From assembly GCA_900472675.1 (NCBI GenBank), contig UCJA01000010.1, positions 1 through 64,000 of the forward strand: DNA of 64,000 nucleotides, in the 5' to 3' direction. Within the stretch, counting starts at the first letter, position 1. Each line of letters starts with the position of its first letter. The stretch comes from Hyphomicrobiales bacterium. Lineage in GTDB: Bacteria; Pseudomonadota; Alphaproteobacteria; Rhizobiales; Rhizobiaceae. This document shows positions 1,177 through 40,705 of this stretch, piece by piece. The translations under genes and the position numbers were made by a program. The notes under the pieces were generated by a model. That model saw only the letters and a program-made list of their open reading frames with translations. It was not told where the DNA came from and searched no databases.

Positions 1177-1695
1177 ATGTTCTGGAAAGTAAGGTCTCTC
1201 TCGGCCGGTGCCGTTGCGGCTATCTGTCTGCTGCTGTCTGTTGGCAACGCCTTTGCCCTGAGCGCCCCGACCGGGGAGGTCATCCTCACCGTCGTTGGCA
1301 AGATCGGGCAGACCAATGCCGATGGACGCGCCGAGTTCGATCTGGCCATGCTCGAAAACCTCAAGGGCCGAACCACACGCACGAAGACGCCGTGGATGGA
1401 GGGGCAATCGGCATTTTCCGGACCGCTGCTGCGAGAGGTTCTCGCGGCGGTCGGCGCGACGGGCAAGACCCTCAAGGTCACGGCTCTCAACGATTTTGTG
1501 GCCTACTTGCCCGATACGGACGCGCTCGAACACGACACGATCCTGGCGACCCGCCTGGACGGCAGCATCATGTCCGTGCGCGACAAGGGCCCCATGTTCC
1601 TGATCTACCCGTTCGACCGGGAGCCCGCTCTCTATAATGAGAAGTATTTCGCCCGCTCGGTTTGGCAGATCACCGAGATCGAGGTGCGGGAATGA
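1177..1695 (+). CDS. Periplasmic molybdopterin-oxidoreductase-fold protein, likely signal input
   Basis: The protein is 172 residues long. A signal peptide is visible (residues 1-24, hydrophobic core AAICLLL, cleavage near AFA-LS), followed by a domain that resembles the sulfite-oxidase-type molybdopterin-binding fold (ILTVVGKIG near the start, PFSGPLLREVL-like segment in the middle, YFARSVWQITEIEV at the end). The only cysteine is inside the signal peptide, so the cysteine that holds molybdenum in true members is absent; I infer a binding or sensing role, not catalysis. ATG 1177 is chosen over 1120 because GAGGGG precedes it and the signal peptide begins there. Its stop overlaps the next gene's start (ATGA at 1692-1695), so the two are translationally coupled, which suggests it feeds the kinase. 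Confidence 0.75.
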   Translation: MFWKVRSLSAGAVAAICLLLSVGNAFALSAPTGEVILTVVGKIGQTNADGRAEFDLAMLENLKGRTTRTKTPWMEGQSAFSGPLLREVLAAVGATGKTLKVTALNDFVAYLPDTDALEHDTILATRLDGSIMSVRDKGPMFLIYPFDREPALYNEKYFARSVWQITEIEVRE

Positions 1696-3950
1696 TGAAG
1701 GCGGTTGCGCGCAACGCGCGGGAGGCGAGGCAGGGCAGTCGGGTCACCATGCTCCTGCAGATGTCCGTGGTCCTTCTGGTGGTCGTCCTTTTCTCCATGC
1801 TGGTCGACATCGCCAGCCGTTACACCAAGTTGCAAGACGGGTTCCGGGAAAACGCCGTCTGGTCCATGTACCAACTGGACCGGGAGAGCCGTAAGTTCCT
1901 CGATGCTCTGCATCGGCTCGTCGACGATGGCGACAGGTCGCGCGGCGCGGTGAAAACGGCTGTGACGCGCTACGACATCGTCTTCTCGCGGATCCGGACC
2001 GTCGAGAAAGGCCGCTTCGATATCAACGTCAATGCCGACAGCGATATTACCCGCAACATCATGGCGATCAGGGCCCTGGTCCGAGGCGCCGAGCCCACCT
2101 TCAATGCGCTGGCTCTGGGGCGCGAGGTCTCCCAAGAGGATCTCGACCAGACCAAACGGAACTTTGACGCCCTGCTGGCCATGACGGAGGAGCTTCTCGT
2201 CTATACCAACAACGCCGCCAGTACCTACCGCGCCGATACCCGCACCGAGCTCGCATCGCTGCAGATACGCTCGGCACTCCTCATCGGTCTGCTGGTGTTC
2301 TGTGTTGCCTGCCTTGTCTATTCCCTGCGCCGTCAGCTTCGATCGATGCGCGAGGCAGGCGCCAGCCTCGAAGCCATGGCAGAACGCCTCAACTCTGCCT
2401 ATCTCGACGCGGAAGCCGGCAACCGCGCCAAGTCGCAGTTCATGGCAACCATCGGGCACGAGGTGCGCACGCCGCTTAACGCCATTCTGGGAACCGCCGA
2501 GCTTCTGCAGCTGTCGGCGCTGCCTCCGACCGTCTGCACGGGCATCGCCACGATCCGGCGATCCGGTGAGTCCTTGCTGGAGATTATCAACGAGGTGCTC
2601 GATTTTGCGAAGATCGAACATGGCAATCTGGTGATCGAAACCCGCGCGGTCGATATTCGCGAAGTGGCGGTAACAGCCATGGAAATCATTCGCGACCGCG
2701 CCGTCGAAAACGGCAACGAGGTCCATCTCGTGGTCGCCCCTGGCTTTTCCACCGACATTGTCCTGACGGACCCGACCCGGCTGCGACAGGTTCTCCTGAA
2801 CCTCATGAGCAATGCAGCCAAGTTCACCAGCGGGGGTACCATCTGCCTCAGGCTGTCCGATGTCGCGCGGGGCGACTCGAGCGTCATTCGCTTCGAGATC
2901 AGCGATACCGGGATCGGCATCGACCCGGCCGGTCTCAGCCGCCTGTTCCAGCCGTTCACGCAAGTGGATGCAACGATCAGCCGGCGGTTTGGCGGCACGG
3001 GGCTGGGGCTGGCCATCTGCAAGCAGATCGTCGAAGGCATGGGCGGCAGGATCGGCGCTGAGAGCGAACCGGGCAAGGGCAGCACCTTCTGGTTCGAGAT
3101 ACCCAGGGTGTGCAGCAACGATGTCGCGCAAACGGATGCGGCGCAACCCTGCCTGGAGGATAGCCAGGCCATCCGCACAACGGCAAATGCTGCGACGTCC
3201 ACGGTGGCTGATGGTCCGTGCGCGGCACAACCGGGCGACCTGCCGCAGTTGAGCATCCTCCTTGTCGAAGACAACAAGATCAACCAGCAGGTGGCGACGG
3301 GCCTTCTGAATCATCTCGGGCAATCCGTCTGCATCGCCGGCGACGGCCTTGAGGCGGTCTCGCTCGCGCAGGCGCAACCCTTCGACCTCGTGTTGATGGA
3401 CATGCAGATGCCGGTGCTCGATGGTATCGAGGCCAGCCGGCGGATCAGGGCGCTGGGCGGCCGCTCCGCCGTCGTTCCGATCGTTGCCATGACCGCGAAT
3501 GCATCCGACCATGACCGCGAACTGTGCCGTGAGGCCGGAATGAACAGCTTCTGCTCGAAGCCCATCTCTCTCGACCAGCTGCGCAAGCTGATCGTCGCGG
3601 CAGCCGACAGATGCCAGAGCATTGCGACGCCAGCCCTCGAAACCGGAGACTTCCAGACGCGGAGCGCCGAACTGGTCGCTGTTCTCGGCGAGCAGGACTT
3701 TATCGATCTTCTCCGGCATTTCTTCGTGGACGCCGACGAGCTGGTCTCCGAATTGTCCGGCGCACTTGCCCGCAACGACCACCGCGCGGCAGACCGCATT
3801 CTTCATTCGCTCAAAGGCGCAGCGACCAGTGTCTGTCTGCAGGAACTGGCGAACCAGATCCAGGACTTGCGCAGCACCGGCGTCTCCGATCAGGGCATCA
3901 ATCAACTAAGGCACGGGCTTGCCACGCGACGACAGCGGCTTGCAGCGTAA
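1692..3950 (+). CDS. Hybrid sensor histidine kinase with REC and HPt domains
   Basis: The protein is 752 residues long. In order it shows a transmembrane segment (about 22-41), a periplasmic sensor region (about 42-195), a second transmembrane segment (about 197-216), a HisKA dimerisation domain with the phosphorylated histidine H256 (GHEVRTPLNAI), an ATPase domain (N box LLNLMSNAAKF, G boxes DTGIGID and GGTGLGLA), a receiver domain with phospho-acceptor D570 (LVLMDMQMP), and an HPt domain with H705 (LHSLKGAA). It can therefore run His-Asp-His internally and pass the phosphate to an external receiver. The start at 1692 overlaps the stop of the oxidoreductase-fold gene. The REC-HD-GYP gene 11 bases downstream is the obvious final acceptor (inference). 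Confidence 0.93.
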   Translation: MMKAVARNAREARQGSRVTMLLQMSVVLLVVVLFSMLVDIASRYTKLQDGFRENAVWSMYQLDRESRKFLDALHRLVDDGDRSRGAVKTAVTRYDIVFSRIRTVEKGRFDINVNADSDITRNIMAIRALVRGAEPTFNALALGREVSQEDLDQTKRNFDALLAMTEELLVYTNNAASTYRADTRTELASLQIRSALLIGLLVFCVACLVYSLRRQLRSMREAGASLEAMAERLNSAYLDAEAGNRAKSQFMATIGHEVRTPLNAILGTAELLQLSALPPTVCTGIATIRRSGESLLEIINEVLDFAKIEHGNLVIETRAVDIREVAVTAMEIIRDRAVENGNEVHLVVAPGFSTDIVLTDPTRLRQVLLNLMSNAAKFTSGGTICLRLSDVARGDSSVIRFEISDTGIGIDPAGLSRLFQPFTQVDATISRRFGGTGLGLAICKQIVEGMGGRIGAESEPGKGSTFWFEIPRVCSNDVAQTDAAQPCLEDSQAIRTTANAATSTVADGPCAAQPGDLPQLSILLVEDNKINQQVATGLLNHLGQSVCIAGDGLEAVSLAQAQPFDLVLMDMQMPVLDGIEASRRIRALGGRSAVVPIVAMTANASDHDRELCREAGMNSFCSKPISLDQLRKLIVAAADRCQSIATPALETGDFQTRSAELVAVLGEQDFIDLLRHFFVDADELVSELSGALARNDHRAADRILHSLKGAATSVCLQELANQIQDLRSTGVSDQGINQLRHGLATRRQRLAA

Positions 3951-3961
3951 AGGGAGCTTTC

Positions 3962-5029
3962 ATGCGTATTCTACTGGTGGACGACAACCGGACCACTCTG
4001 CGGTACATGACGAAGCTGGTCCGCAAACTGGACGCAGAGCCGCTTGCCTATGACTCGCCTGAATCGGTTTTGAGCGACACGTCACGGCTGGACTTCGATA
4101 TCGGCGTCATCGATTTCCAGATGCCGTTCTGCAGTGGCGTCGAGCTGCTGAGGGCATTGACGAGGCTCGAGAAATACCGCGACAAGCCGTTCATCGTCGT
4201 GACCGCCGACACCGATCCTTCCACGCGCATGGATGCGTTGAACGCCGGCGCCATCGACTTCTTGACCAAGCCGATCAATCCGCTGGAGTTCCAGGCTCGG
4301 ATGCGCAACCTGTCGGCGCTGGTGGATGCCCGCAACAAGCTTGCCGACAAGGCGGACTGGCTGCGCCAGGAGGTGGAGAAGGCGTTGCGGGAGATGCGCG
4401 AGCGGGAGGAGGAGATCATCAACCGCCTGACGATCGCCGCAAGCTACAAGGATCAGGATACCGCCCAGCACACGCGCCGCGTCGCGGAGTATTCGGAGGC
4501 GATCTCTGCAGCCTACGGTCTCGACGTGGACCGGTGCCGCGACATGCGCCTTGCCTCGCCGATGCACGACATCGGCAAGGTTGGTATACCCGACGTCATC
4601 CTGCTGAAGACCGGCAAGCTGACAGAGCAGGAATTCGCGACCATGCAGCGGCATGCGCTGATCGGGCGCGATATACTGGCGGAATCATCCTCAAGTCTCC
4701 TGCAACTCGCGGCCGAAATCGCCGGCAGCCATCATGAGCGCTGGGACGGGCAGGGGTATCCCCTTCGTCTCGCAGGCACTTCCATTCCACTGTCGGGCCG
4801 GATTGTTGCCCTTGCCGACAATTTCGATGCGCTGACGACCGCGCGTCCCTACAAGGCGGCCTGGGATGTGGAGACCACCGTCGATCACATCAACGAGCGG
4901 TCCGGCAGCCAGTTTGACCCCGATGTGGTGAAGGCGTTCAACAAGGCGCTGCCGAAGATCCTGTCGGTCATGCTGGCACATCTCCCATCCACTGTATCCC
5001 GGGAGGTGCAAAGGGTGCGGTCGGCCTGA
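3962..5029 (+). CDS. Response regulator with HD-GYP c-di-GMP phosphodiesterase domain
   Basis: The protein is 355 residues long. It has an N-terminal receiver domain with phospho-acceptor D51 (VIDFQMP) and the conserved lysine in TKPINP, a helical linker (about 125-160), and an HD-GYP domain with the metal-binding HD pair H202-D203 (MHDIGK), the HHER motif and the GYP signature at 265-267. HD-GYP proteins hydrolyse c-di-GMP. The start ATG 3962 has AAGGGAG seven bases upstream; a longer reading frame upstream only overlaps the kinase gene. It lies 11 bases after the hybrid kinase and is in one operon with it. Phosphorylation by the kinase HPt domain probably switches the phosphodiesterase. Confidence 0.93.
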   Translation: MRILLVDDNRTTLRYMTKLVRKLDAEPLAYDSPESVLSDTSRLDFDIGVIDFQMPFCSGVELLRALTRLEKYRDKPFIVVTADTDPSTRMDALNAGAIDFLTKPINPLEFQARMRNLSALVDARNKLADKADWLRQEVEKALREMREREEEIINRLTIAASYKDQDTAQHTRRVAEYSEAISAAYGLDVDRCRDMRLASPMHDIGKVGIPDVILLKTGKLTEQEFATMQRHALIGRDILAESSSSLLQLAAEIAGSHHERWDGQGYPLRLAGTSIPLSGRIVALADNFDALTTARPYKAAWDVETTVDHINERSGSQFDPDVVKAFNKALPKILSVMLAHLPSTVSREVQRVRSA

Positions 5030-5138
5030 GGGTCCCGGAACTGCCTCAGAATGCAGCTATGCAGTCATAGCAATCTTGCATGGCTGACCTGCTAAAATCT
5101 GCCTATGAATTGTGCGATTTTCGCGTATTCTCCTTCTT

Positions 5139-5297
5139 GTCGGCTTGACCTATCTCCTCCCAGGAAGGGCCGACCTAGCAGGGATCCAATCCTCCTCCCA
5201 AGGATTCCCTGCCGGAGCAGCAGCACTCCTCCTCCCGAGCTGTTGCTCTACTTATTCAAGAAGCCTGCCGCACCTCCTCCCGCGGCAGGCTTTTTGG
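5139..5297 (+). ncRNA. Anti-Shine-Dalgarno small RNA, alpha-r14/NfeR1-like
   Basis: Four consecutive inverted repeats each place CTCCTCCC or CCTCCTCCC in or at the edge of a loop. Stem 1 is 5139-5144 with 5169-5174 (motif 5154-5161); stem 2 is 5188-5193 with 5201-5206 (motif 5191-5199); stem 3 is 5215-5224 with 5239-5248 (motif 5228-5236); stem 4 is GCCTGCCG 5263-5270 with CGGCAGGC 5283-5290 (motif 5273-5281), followed by five T, so it is also the terminator. The motif is complementary to GGGAGGAGG ribosome-binding sites. The rhizobial alpha-r14 family (NfeR1) is known for hairpin loops with CCUCCUCCC. The 5' end is uncertain, and I found no convincing -35/-10 pair: CTTGAC at 5144 has no matching -10 at 17 bases. 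The RNA may start near 5174, which would leave three hairpins. Confidence 0.72.
5263..5295 (+). terminator. Rho-independent terminator of the anti-SD small RNA
   Basis: A perfect 8-bp stem (5263-5270 with 5283-5290) and a 12-base loop holding CCTCCTCCC are followed by TTTTT. It would also stop read-through from the HD-GYP operon. Confidence 0.8.
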
Positions 5298-5338
5298 TTT
5301 TTGGAGCCTTCCCCTTCTAAAGTCCCGACCGATGCGGT

Positions 5339-5446
5339 TCAGCCGAGCTTGCGAAGGCGCCAGGTATTCTTTCCGGCAGCCTTGGCCTCATAAAGCTTTT
5401 CGTCAGCGGCGTCGGTCAGTCCGCGCAAATGGTCGGGTTTGCGCGG
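5339..5446 (-). pseudogene. C-terminal remainder of the interrupted GGDEF gene
   Basis: Thirty-five codons plus a stop (TGA at 5339-5341) follow the in-frame TAA of the preceding entry without any frame change. They encode the conserved GGDEF end motif (AADEKLYEAKAAGKN). This stretch has no start codon or ribosome-binding site of its own, so it is the cut-off end of the same gene. Confidence 0.8.
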
Positions 5447-6604
5447 TTACCAGGCGCCACCCACGCTCGCGTGAACCGCAACTGTATGATCTCCCAGCTC
5501 AATCGGCTGGCGGAGCTCCTCGACGATGCGCGCCGCAATGCCTTCCGCGGCACTGTGGGGCCCGTCGATCAGCACCAGGAACTCGTCGCCGCCCATGCGT
5601 GCGATCGTATCGATCTGCCGCACGGATCGCTTGAGCCGCAGGGCGGCTTCCACCAGCACGGCGTCGCCCATGCCATGGCCGAAACGGTCGTTCACTGCCT
5701 TGAACCCGTCCAGATCGACCGCCAGAAGACCGCAGCCCAGGCTAAACACACCATGCGTGAAGCTCTTCTGGATGCCGCGGCGATTGAGCAGCGACGTCAG
5801 TGAATCAGTATCGGCACTGGTTTCGAGCTGTTCTAGCCGCGTGTGTTCCGCCGTCATGTCCATGGCGACGCCGACGATCCGCATCGGCTTTCCCTGATCA
5901 TCACGCAGCAGGCGGCGGTCGCACCGCATCCATCGCTCGCCGTTGCGGGTGGCCAGCCGATATTCGGCGACCGACTGATCAACGGTGCCCGCCAACAGGT
6001 CGGCAAGACTGGCATTGGCGCGGTCGCTCGGCATCACCAGTGCCATATAGCCCTCGAGATCCAGGATGGCCGCATCGGGGCCGCTGATGAACTGGGCGAG
6101 ACGGTTGGAGGTTTCGAAATGCTGCGTCTCGACGTCCATATGCCAGAAGCCGCCGCGGATCGCCTCCAAAACCAGTTCGAGCTGGGCCGCCCTTTCCGCC
6201 AGCTGACGCTCCGCGCGCTTCTGTTCTGTGATGTCCTCGATCTGGGAGATGAAGCGAACAACGGAGCCTTCCGCATTGCGCATCGCCGTCACCGTTAGCG
6301 CGGCATAGACAATCTCGCCATCGCGGCGCAGATAGCGCTTTTCGATCCGGTAGCCATCACGCTTGCGAGCCAGCACCTCCTCGAACAGGCCGAGATCGAC
6401 CTCAAGATCGTCCGCATGGGTGAAATCGCCGAAGGACTTGGCTTCGAGTTGCCGCTTGGAAAGCCCCAGCATGCGCGCGAAACTCTCATTTCCCTTGATG
6501 ATACGGCCCTGTGTGTCAACCAGCGCAATCCCGATCGGCGCAGCCTCGAAAGCATAGTCGAACAGTGCACTTCGCTCTTGGAGATCCTGCCTGTCTGGAT
6601 TCAT
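5447..6604 (-). CDS. PAS-PAS-GGDEF diguanylate cyclase, cut by an in-frame stop
   Basis: The open frame encodes 385 residues: PAS 1 (about 15-130, ending in a PAC-like QIEDITEQKRAE), PAS 2 (about 140-255), and a GGDEF domain (about 262-385) with the intact active-site motif MGGDEF. GGDEF enzymes make c-di-GMP. The frame ends at SVGGAW followed by TAA at 5447-5449, before the last conserved helix of the domain. Beyond the TAA the same frame stays open and encodes the missing part (ADEKLYEAKAAGKN), so this looks like a point nonsense change in a 421-codon gene. The truncated protein probably folds poorly or is inactive, but the PAS domains could still be made. No transmembrane segment is seen. 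It converges on the small RNA. Confidence 0.85.
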   Translation of the reverse strand: MNPDRQDLQERSALFDYAFEAAPIGIALVDTQGRIIKGNESFARMLGLSKRQLEAKSFGDFTHADDLEVDLGLFEEVLARKRDGYRIEKRYLRRDGEIVYAALTVTAMRNAEGSVVRFISQIEDITEQKRAERQLAERAAQLELVLEAIRGGFWHMDVETQHFETSNRLAQFISGPDAAILDLEGYMALVMPSDRANASLADLLAGTVDQSVAEYRLATRNGERWMRCDRRLLRDDQGKPMRIVGVAMDMTAEHTRLEQLETSADTDSLTSLLNRRGIQKSFTHGVFSLGCGLLAVDLDGFKAVNDRFGHGMGDAVLVEAALRLKRSVRQIDTIARMGGDEFLVLIDGPHSAAEGIAARIVEELRQPIELGDHTVAVHASVGGAW

Positions 6605-6824: not shown

Positions 6825-7610
6825 ATGCACGTCACTGAGCGTCAGGCGAGGATCATCGAACAGGCGCGGTCTTCCGGACGGGTCGCCGTGGAAGACCTGG
6901 CGACGCGCTTTGCGGTCACGCCCCAGACGATCCGCAAGGACCTCAACGATCTCTGTGATGCGCAGCTGCTTACCCGCATCCACGGAGGCGCCACCTTTCC
7001 GCGCGGAACCGAGAACGTCCGCTATGATGCCAGGCGCCAGATCGCAGCCGCGGAGAAGCAAGCGATCGGCGCTGCAGCGGCTGCCATCATTCCTGACGGT
7101 GCCTCCCTCTTCATCAACATCGGAACCACGACGGAGGCGGTCGGAGAGGGTCTGGTCAGCCATCGCGACCTCATGGTGATCACCAATAACCTGAACGTTG
7201 CCAATCACCTGCGGGTACTCGACGATGTCGAAGTGGTGATCGCCGGCGGCGTGGTGCGGCAATCGGATGGCGGTATCGTCGGCGAGGCGGCCGTGGACTT
7301 CATCCGCCAGTTCAAGGTGGATTATGCGGTGATCGGTGCCTCGGCCATCGATCCGGATGGTGCCTTGCTGGACTATGATTTTCGCGAGGTGAAAGTGGCG
7401 CAGGCCATCATCGCCAACGCACGGCACGTCATCCTGGTGGCCGATTCCACCAAGTTCGAACGGACGGCGCCGGTGCGTATCGCTCAGATCAGCCAGGTCC
7501 ACACTTTTATTACCGACCAGTGCGATTCCCCGACCATCAAAACCCTTTGCCAGCAGAGCGGCGTCCGGCTGATCGAGGCTGCCCGCAGCGAGCATGAGAT
7601 TGTGCTCTGA
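6825..7610 (+). CDS. glpR: DeoR-family repressor of glycerol metabolism
   Basis: The protein is 261 residues long, typical for the family. It has an N-terminal DeoR winged helix-turn-helix (about 3-58, VEDLATRFAVTPQTIRKDL) and a C-terminal sugar-phosphate-sensing domain (about 75-235, INIGTTTEAVGEGL, VIGASAIDPDGALLDYD). In GlpR this domain senses glycerol 3-phosphate and releases DNA. AAAGGAA lies eight bases before the ATG. It sits directly upstream of glpD and the glycerol importer in the same direction, which supports the assignment. The TTCG repeats between this gene and glpD are the likely operator. GCATTCGAAAG just before its own start may allow autoregulation. Confidence 0.88.
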   Translation: MHVTERQARIIEQARSSGRVAVEDLATRFAVTPQTIRKDLNDLCDAQLLTRIHGGATFPRGTENVRYDARRQIAAAEKQAIGAAAAAIIPDGASLFINIGTTTEAVGEGLVSHRDLMVITNNLNVANHLRVLDDVEVVIAGGVVRQSDGGIVGEAAVDFIRQFKVDYAVIGASAIDPDGALLDYDFREVKVAQAIIANARHVILVADSTKFERTAPVRIAQISQVHTFITDQCDSPTIKTLCQQSGVRLIEAARSEHEIVL

Positions 7611-39387: not shown

Positions 39388-39529
39388 CCTGCTGTGGACG
39401 CTAGGATAGACTGCAAGATGCGCGATCGAACGGGAGGAGCACCGTCTGGTTCGGGTGACCGGATAGCGGTGAAGGCTCGATGCGCAGGGATGCCGCAAGG
39501 CTTGGATATTTCGCTCTAGGGAGGAGTCG

Positions 39530-40705
39530 ATGATCAAGGGAATAGCACTGGGTGTGGCCGGATTGGCGGCTGCCCTGACCACCGCTCTGCCGGTGACTGC
39601 GCAGGAGGCCGTGAAGATCGGCCTGATCCTGCCGATGACCGGACCCTTCGCCTCGACGGGGCGGCAGGTTTCGGCAGGCGCCAAGGCTTATATGGCCGCC
39701 AAGGGCGATACGGTTGCCGGCAAGAAGATCGAGCTGGTGATCCGCGACGACGGCGGTGTTGCCGACCAGACGCGGCGCATCGCCCAGGAACTGGTGGTCA
39801 ACGACGGCGCCAAGGTGCTCGCCGGCTTCGGTCTGACGCCTCTCGCCATGGCAGTCGCACCGGTTGCGACGCAGGCAAAGATCCCGACCGTCGTCATGGC
39901 CGCCGGAACCGCCGCCATCACCAAGGCATCGCCCTTCATCACCCGGACATCCGGCACCCTTCCGCAGTATTCCATGCCCGTCGGCACCTGGGCCAGCCAG
40001 AACGGCATCAAGAAAGTGGTGACGCTGGTGTCGGACTATGGCCCGGGCATCGATGCGGAAAAGTGGTTCAGCAAGGAGTTCAAGGCCAAGGGCGGCGAGG
40101 TCGTCGAGGCTGTTCGCGTGCCTCTGCAGAACCCCGATTTTGCCCCCTTCCTGCAACGCGTGCGCGATGCCAAGCCGGATGCGGTTTTCGTGTTCCTGCC
40201 GTCGGGCGTCGGTGCTCTGTTCATGAAGCAGTTTTCCGATCGCGGTCTTCCGGAGGCCGGGATCAAGCTGATCGCCACCGGCGACGTGACGGACGACGAT
40301 ATCCTCAACAGCATGGGCAAGCCGGCGATCGGTACGATTACCGGCCATTTCTATGCGACGGCCCACGAGAGCCCGGAAAACAAGGCCTATGTCGAGGTCT
40401 TCAAGAAGGTCAACAACGACATGCGTCCGAACTTCATGTCGGTCGGCGGCTACGACGGCATGGCGCTGATCTACAACGCGCTGGAAAAGACCAAGGGTGA
40501 CGCCACTGGGCCGGCCTTCATGGAGGCGGTCAAAGGCCTTTCCTGGACGAGCCCGCGGGGACCGGTCAGCATCGATCCGGATACCCGTGACATCATCCAG
40601 AACATCTATATCCGCGAGGTGAAGGATGTGGGCGGTGAGTTGCAGAACGTCGAGATCCAGACCTTCGCCAATCTGAAGGATCCGGAAAAAGCCGAAGCCA
40701 AATAG
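39530..40705 (+). CDS. ABC importer substrate-binding protein, LivK type, copy 2
   Basis: The protein is 391 residues long with a signal peptide (1-24, cleavage after PVTA) and the type-1 binding fold (ILPMTGPFASTGRQV, RDDGGVADQTRRIAQ, LVSDYGPGIDAEK). It differs from copy 1 mainly in ligand-pocket segments such as AAGTAAITKASPF against SATTSAIMKQSEY. AGGGAGGAG precedes the ATG. The permease and ATPase genes follow in the same direction, so this copy is the operon's own binding protein. Confidence 0.9.
   Translation: MIKGIALGVAGLAAALTTALPVTAQEAVKIGLILPMTGPFASTGRQVSAGAKAYMAAKGDTVAGKKIELVIRDDGGVADQTRRIAQELVVNDGAKVLAGFGLTPLAMAVAPVATQAKIPTVVMAAGTAAITKASPFITRTSGTLPQYSMPVGTWASQNGIKKVVTLVSDYGPGIDAEKWFSKEFKAKGGEVVEAVRVPLQNPDFAPFLQRVRDAKPDAVFVFLPSGVGALFMKQFSDRGLPEAGIKLIATGDVTDDDILNSMGKPAIGTITGHFYATAHESPENKAYVEVFKKVNNDMRPNFMSVGGYDGMALIYNALEKTKGDATGPAFMEAVKGLSWTSPRGPVSIDPDTRDIIQNIYIREVKDVGGELQNVEIQTFANLKDPEKAEAK

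Follow-up and report, generated by a model that had tools for sequence, protein, structure and literature searches.

The window analysed here, a stretch of 64,000 nucleotides of DNA from a bacterium of the Rhizobiaceae, very probably contains at 5138-5298 on the + strand an independent, trans-acting small RNA gene of the four-hairpin alpha-r14/'cuckoo' type, belonging to the SmelA099 class, with a promoter and a terminator of its own and with loops that would pair with Shine-Dalgarno sites. The predicted transcript of 161 nt is based on an Rfam match, on ends transferred from SmelA099, on the fold and on covariation. We further infer that it is expressed in this organism and acts as a repressor, that its loops are redundant and that it is under nitrogen or stress control.

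Four motif-bearing hairpins in one predicted transcript

Within 128 bases of the + strand the motif CTCCTCCC has four copies, at 5154-5161, 5192-5199, 5229-5236 and 5274-5281; three of these sites carry the 9-mer CCTCCTCCC, and the first reads TCTCCTCCC. The four copies fall, in this order, into hairpin 1 (5139-5174), hairpin 2 (5178-5212), hairpin 3 (5214-5249) and hairpin 4 (5256-5297), all on the + strand, the last of which is an intrinsic terminator closed by TTTTT at 5291-5295. The fold of 5120-5310 reaches -82 kcal/mol, whereas shuffled sequences average -56.7 (sd 4.0; z -6.3; none of 200 equals it). Within the fold of 5138-5298 the mean unpaired probabilities of motifs 1-4 are 0.94, 0.82, 0.99 and 1.00, and CUCCUCCC is predicted to be mostly or wholly unpaired in all four loops. 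Positions and fold thus confirm the initial annotation, which had described four motif copies within 130 bases, placed in or at the edge of hairpin loops and ending in TTTTT; the coordinates it gave, 5139-5297, lie at most one base per end from the interval inferred from the mapped Sinorhizobium meliloti relative. Over both strands of the 64-kb window, CTCCTCCC has 8 matches where 2.88 are expected (sd 1.47; maximum of 100 shuffles, 7). As none of the 100 window shuffles reached 8, chance clustering of CT-rich words was rejected.

A cmscan search against Rfam 15 returned a single gathering-level match within the window, to ar14 (RF02344) at 5172-5297, with 94 bits (cut-off 58.8) over model positions 1-123 of 123. 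The alpha-r14 membership that had been proposed for this RNA is therefore supported by the covariance model, which spans hairpins 2-4 only and leaves out hairpin 1. As in other alpha-r14 RNAs, each hairpin bears the loop motif on variable stems; the loop motif and the terminator are common to NfeR1 and RF02344, and the upstream box recurs in three-motif copies. In contrast, NfeR1 has three hairpins and 122-124 nt, the Rfam model has 123 positions, and alpha-r14 RNAs are described with exactly three hairpins and, in S. meliloti (SmelA075, NfeR1), with 116-124 nt. With its four hairpins and a predicted length of about 161 nt, the RNA at 5138-5298 is therefore assigned to the four-hairpin class instead of being counted as an NfeR1 copy.

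SmelA099 and other known relatives

The closest described counterpart is SmelA099 of S. meliloti, a 160-nt RNA on the minus strand of pSymA at 1328175-1328334, found by deep (454) sequencing (PMC2873474, PMC7143759). The alignment of the SmelA099 stretch with the window begins at the promoter box and runs through the terminator. Both this homology and the four motif-bearing hairpins place the window RNA in this class. The two have in common four consecutive hairpins with the motif in every loop, the fold of hairpin 1 (identical dot-bracket patterns) and a nearly identical terminator hairpin, with motif spacings of 37, 36 and 46 bases in SmelA099 and 38, 37 and 45 in the window; they differ in the stem sequences of hairpins 1-3. 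The 5' end of SmelA099 corresponds in the alignment to window position 5138, which makes a common 5' end near 5138 probable for the window RNA.

According to PMC3927594, RFM SmelA075 has three hairpins and RFM SmelA099 four, each loop carrying CCUCCUCCC, and a union of both in one family has been suggested; the same source states that L5, the member from Agrobacterium tumefaciens, was verified both by deep sequencing and on northern blots. In PMC4504443 the 'cuckoo' motif comprises 2-4 hairpins. The four-hairpin form has been known since 2011, when SmelA099-type RNAs were described (PMC3927594). The suggestion that the window RNA has one more motif hairpin than usual is supported by comparison with the three other copies in the same genome, but RNAs with four hairpins already form a published class. 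A search of the open-licence literature found no study of what a four-hairpin member does.

The comparison extends to CcsR1-4 and RS0680a of Rhodobacter sphaeroides, which we take to be the same RNAs. The hairpins of RS0680a likewise bear the anti-Shine-Dalgarno motif, but there are two hairpins per RNA, and the CcsR RNAs arise by processing of a transcript that also contains a DUF1127 gene. No DUF1127 protein was found among the four window neighbours scanned.

Hairpin 1 as part of the gene

On the evidence of relatives, covariation and promoter spacing, hairpin 1 is part of the predicted gene. Throughout the cluster and locus counts, 'motif' denotes the 7-mer CTCCTCC. Among the matches listed, a fourth CTCCTCC lies 36-39 bases upstream of motif 2 in 20 of 22 distinct genus loci, all fetched by BLAST matches starting downstream of hairpin 1; in the remaining two (L054, L060) this upstream motif is mutated. 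These two genus relatives appear as four-hairpin copies with the first motif mutated and the other three intact, a possible loss of one module.

Covariation was assessed on 73 four-motif loci (the window and 72 others) picked for exact motifs and the promoter box, so that the invariance of the motifs in this alignment is partly by construction; 31 other four-motif clusters were left out because their spacing differed or because the box was absent or out of place. Across the structure as a whole, 97.2% of cells are paired. Changes on both sides were found in 25 of 37 pairs, against a shuffle mean of 12.9 (sd 1.8; none of 500 reaches 25), and the covariation score of 0.277 compares with 0.064-0.094 in slid versions; when the partners are shifted by 1-3 columns, pairing falls to 36-51%. 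Hairpin 1 (helices 1 and 2), which lies outside the Rfam model and in the window is diverged from the class consensus, keeps its pairing with two-sided changes in 7/7 pairs, alongside 6/6 in hairpin 2 (helix 3) and 9/10 in hairpin 3 (helix 4). The terminator hairpin (helix 5) has 99.0% of cells paired and two-sided changes in 3/14 pairs.

The region upstream of hairpin 1 holds a conserved promoter box, GCATGGCTG, at 5078-5086 (+ strand), about -60 from the predicted start and 76 bases before motif 1, and a -10-like element, GTATTC, at 5125-5130 (+ strand), whose TAT is common in the class consensus sequences of relatives. In 73 of 104 four-motif clusters, the window among them, this box or a variant of it precedes motif 1 by 74-78 bases; in 22 of 67 three-motif clusters the distance is 76-78 bases. 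The spacing test is silent on the 28 four-motif and 42 three-motif clusters in which no box was recognised. The boxless four-motif clusters comprise 12 from the window's genus or from rhizobial, Brucella and Ochrobactrum records, the close relative L038 among them, and 16 from Rhodobacteraceae or unrelated bacteria. The box lies elsewhere in three four-motif clusters (L056, L079, L136) and in three three-motif clusters, including L054 and L060, where it precedes the first exact motif by 111-114 bases because the first motif is mutated. Where a box was found, its equal distance from motif 1 in three- and four-motif copies places the extra hairpin within the transcript rather than ahead of it.

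For NfeR1, a promoter of the form CTTAGAC-N17-CTATAT has been reported together with an LsrB-type TGCA-N6-GCAT box. Compared with it, the window has the GCAT half-site, the T-N11-A spacing and the -10 TAT, whereas the TGCA half is absent and the -35 unrecognisable. A scan of the region for a consensus sigma-70 promoter found none, and its sole terminator-like match, at 5111-5127, differs from the terminator hairpin described above.

These data bear directly on a shorter gene, namely an ordinary three-hairpin alpha-r14 RNA starting at about 5172, with hairpin 1 untranscribed and lying in its promoter region. The Rfam model, which reaches only 5172-5297, the three hairpins given for NfeR1 in the literature and a TTGAC within hairpin 1 that looks like a -35 element would all agree with such a start. 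Yet the promoter scan found none there, the box and TAT stand upstream of hairpin 1 at the spacing of three-hairpin copies, all seven pairs of hairpin 1 carry two-sided changes, and the sequenced SmelA099 RNA includes this hairpin, which together make the shorter gene very improbable, though it fares best among the alternatives.

Distribution of three- and four-hairpin copies

Four ar14 copies score above the cut-off in the window's genome, and only that of the window has four motifs: two others (L001, L003) have three each, and the last (L004) has two exact motifs and a changed third, with none further upstream. In the genus, ar14 is present in 40/40 sampled genomes, with 3-9 matches each among the matches listed. 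A pattern requiring the exact spacing of motifs 1-3 of the four was found in 40 of 57 genus genomes (reversed control, 0 matches), its lack in the other 17 being no proof of absence because the pattern allows no mismatch. The same pattern occurs in 78 of 297 genomes of the taxonomic family, where it also catches RNAs with other stems, some of them with three motifs. Carriers of four motifs include Rhizobium leguminosarum, R. phaseoli, R. laguerreae, R. rhizogenes, Shinella, Neorhizobium and Ensifer. A point against the proposed gene is that, according to PMC7143759, northern blots reliably detect only one of the six copies of the NfeR1 locus in S. meliloti.

Longer arrays were also observed. 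Clusters of 7-11 CTCCTCC motifs spaced by 36-53 bases occur in Loktanella sp. DSM 29012 (L170, with 11 motifs the largest among the clusters compared) and in Paracoccus, Falsirhodobacter, Aliiroseovarius and Rhodobacteraceae (L068, L075, L140, L157, L167, L172), and probably represent tandem CcsR-like RNAs. A cluster of six motifs in Mesorhizobium sp. RMAD-H1 (L150), with spacings of 36, 38, 49, 37 and 40 bases, possibly corresponds to two three-hairpin RNAs in tandem.

Neighbouring genes

Upstream of the small RNA lie a gene for a hybrid histidine kinase (1662-3950) and one for a response regulator with an HD domain (stop at 5029); downstream follow a PAS-GGDEF gene on the opposite strand (5447-6604) and, beyond it, a DeoR-type regulator gene (6825-7610). 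In four genus relatives (L036, L037, L038, L043) the small RNA lies 34-142 bases before a stretch matching the DeoR-type regulator region, which indicates a conserved place in the nearest relatives and, given the short gap, that the GGDEF gene is missing there between RNA and regulator. Among the loci compared, flanking genes in common with the window (matches of at least 150 bases) were found only at L036, L037, L038, L043/L156, L171 and L042, L156 being the same place as L043. The PAS-GGDEF gene, lying between RNA and regulator in the window and not in the four relatives, reflects either an insertion or a loss. Its frame has an in-frame stop at 5447-5449, with 35 further GGDEF-like codons in the same frame (5339-5449), so that the gene may be decaying.

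Such surroundings could suggest a cis element that belongs to the adjacent genes as an untranslated region or an array of terminators, since the RNA comes after the response-regulator/HD-domain gene and, in four relatives, closely precedes the stretch matching the DeoR-type regulator (34-142 bases). However, few of the compared loci have flanking genes in common, yet 73 four-motif clusters keep the promoter spacing; the RNA has its own terminator, and PMC3927594 describes copies on each replicon and a fragmented microsynteny. A cis element is accordingly very unlikely, marginally more so than the three-hairpin start. The reverse complement would present GGGAGGAG in hairpin loops, and the minus strand could thus be imagined to act on a CsrA-like protein as a GGA-loop decoy. 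This is hardly credible, as the + strand carries the promoter box and the terminator with its T-run and is also the strand of the mapped relative.

Candidate targets and mode of action

For the independent trans-acting RNA, the following mode of action is proposed. Transcription would start near 5138 from its own promoter, with the upstream box common to the three-hairpin paralogues, and would end near 5298 at the intrinsic terminator. A largely single-stranded CUCCUCCC would be offered by all four loops, any of which could pair with the purine-rich GGGAGGAG in the Shine-Dalgarno sites of mRNAs, probably above all those of ABC-transporter binding proteins and metabolic genes, such pairing blocking ribosome binding. 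For NfeR1 of S. meliloti, PMC10746234 reports that three redundant motifs pair with translation start regions and silence ntrB and two ABC-transporter mRNAs.

The pattern GGGAGGAG-N3-10-ATG, in which GGGAGGAG is the exact 8-nt complement of the motif, has 41 sites in the window's genome, against 5 for the reversed pattern. Of these, 35 were read and the other 6 judged by coordinates only, none of the latter lying ahead of a binding-protein match. An open reading frame of at least 120 codons is opened by 23 of the 35 sites read and none by the other 12; one site read (L192) is the opposite strand of an ar14 copy. In a Pfam scan of all 23 frames, three (L191, L194, L199) match no family and may not all be genes.

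Six of the 41 sites precede genes for ABC-transporter solute-binding proteins (two SBP_bac_5, three SBP_bac_1/8 and one Peripla_BP_6). The three binding-protein families searched have 36, 32 and 10 genes above the cut-off in the genome, and a site in 6 of these 78 corresponds to a hypergeometric p of about 3e-5 if 5000 genes are assumed. One of the six, the candidate target site GGGAGGAG-TCG-ATG at 39519-39532 (+ strand), lies in the window itself and forms the putative Shine-Dalgarno of a periplasmic binding-protein gene at 39530-40705 (Pfam PF13458, Peripla_BP_6, E 3e-73), ahead of which a second GGGAGGAG lies at 39432-39439.

This enrichment may partly reflect generally strong ribosome sites of binding-protein genes. 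In a sample of 40 binding-protein genes, made up of the first 20 matches to PF00496 (of 36) and to PF13416 (of 32), GGAGG precedes 8. Of 41 window genes, which were selected with a filter on codon-position G+C and include a binding-protein gene, it precedes 5, a difference that is not significant (p 0.38). No site is specific to the four-hairpin RNA, because the three-hairpin paralogues bear the identical motif. The ntrB gene of this genome has only GGGAGG, 6 nt, complementary to the motif, and its predicted duplex reaches -12.3 kcal/mol, compared with -20.3 to -26.1 for five other candidates. Judged from complementarity, translational repression through pairing with Shine-Dalgarno sites is the most likely action of the RNA, which, given the precedent of NfeR1, could repress many mRNAs.

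Implications

An annotation by the Rfam match alone would drop the first hairpin and, with it, the likely 5' end of the RNA. The RNA at 5138-5298 opens no new mechanism, and its extra hairpin is that of a known class. The four-motif loci, with their covariation and common promoter spacing, provide a basis for a four-hairpin model and for the question of module number. In this respect we tentatively suggest, as a possibility that we hold to be well below even, that the number of anti-Shine-Dalgarno hairpins (2, 3 or 4) is tuned and separately maintained, hairpins being gained and lost inside the transcript with the promoter and the first hairpin fixed, and that RNAs of the four-hairpin class, instead of being redundant copies, act as a distinct and long-lived regulator of greater capacity. 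If true, greater capacity would mean that a single RNA holds several mRNAs at once.
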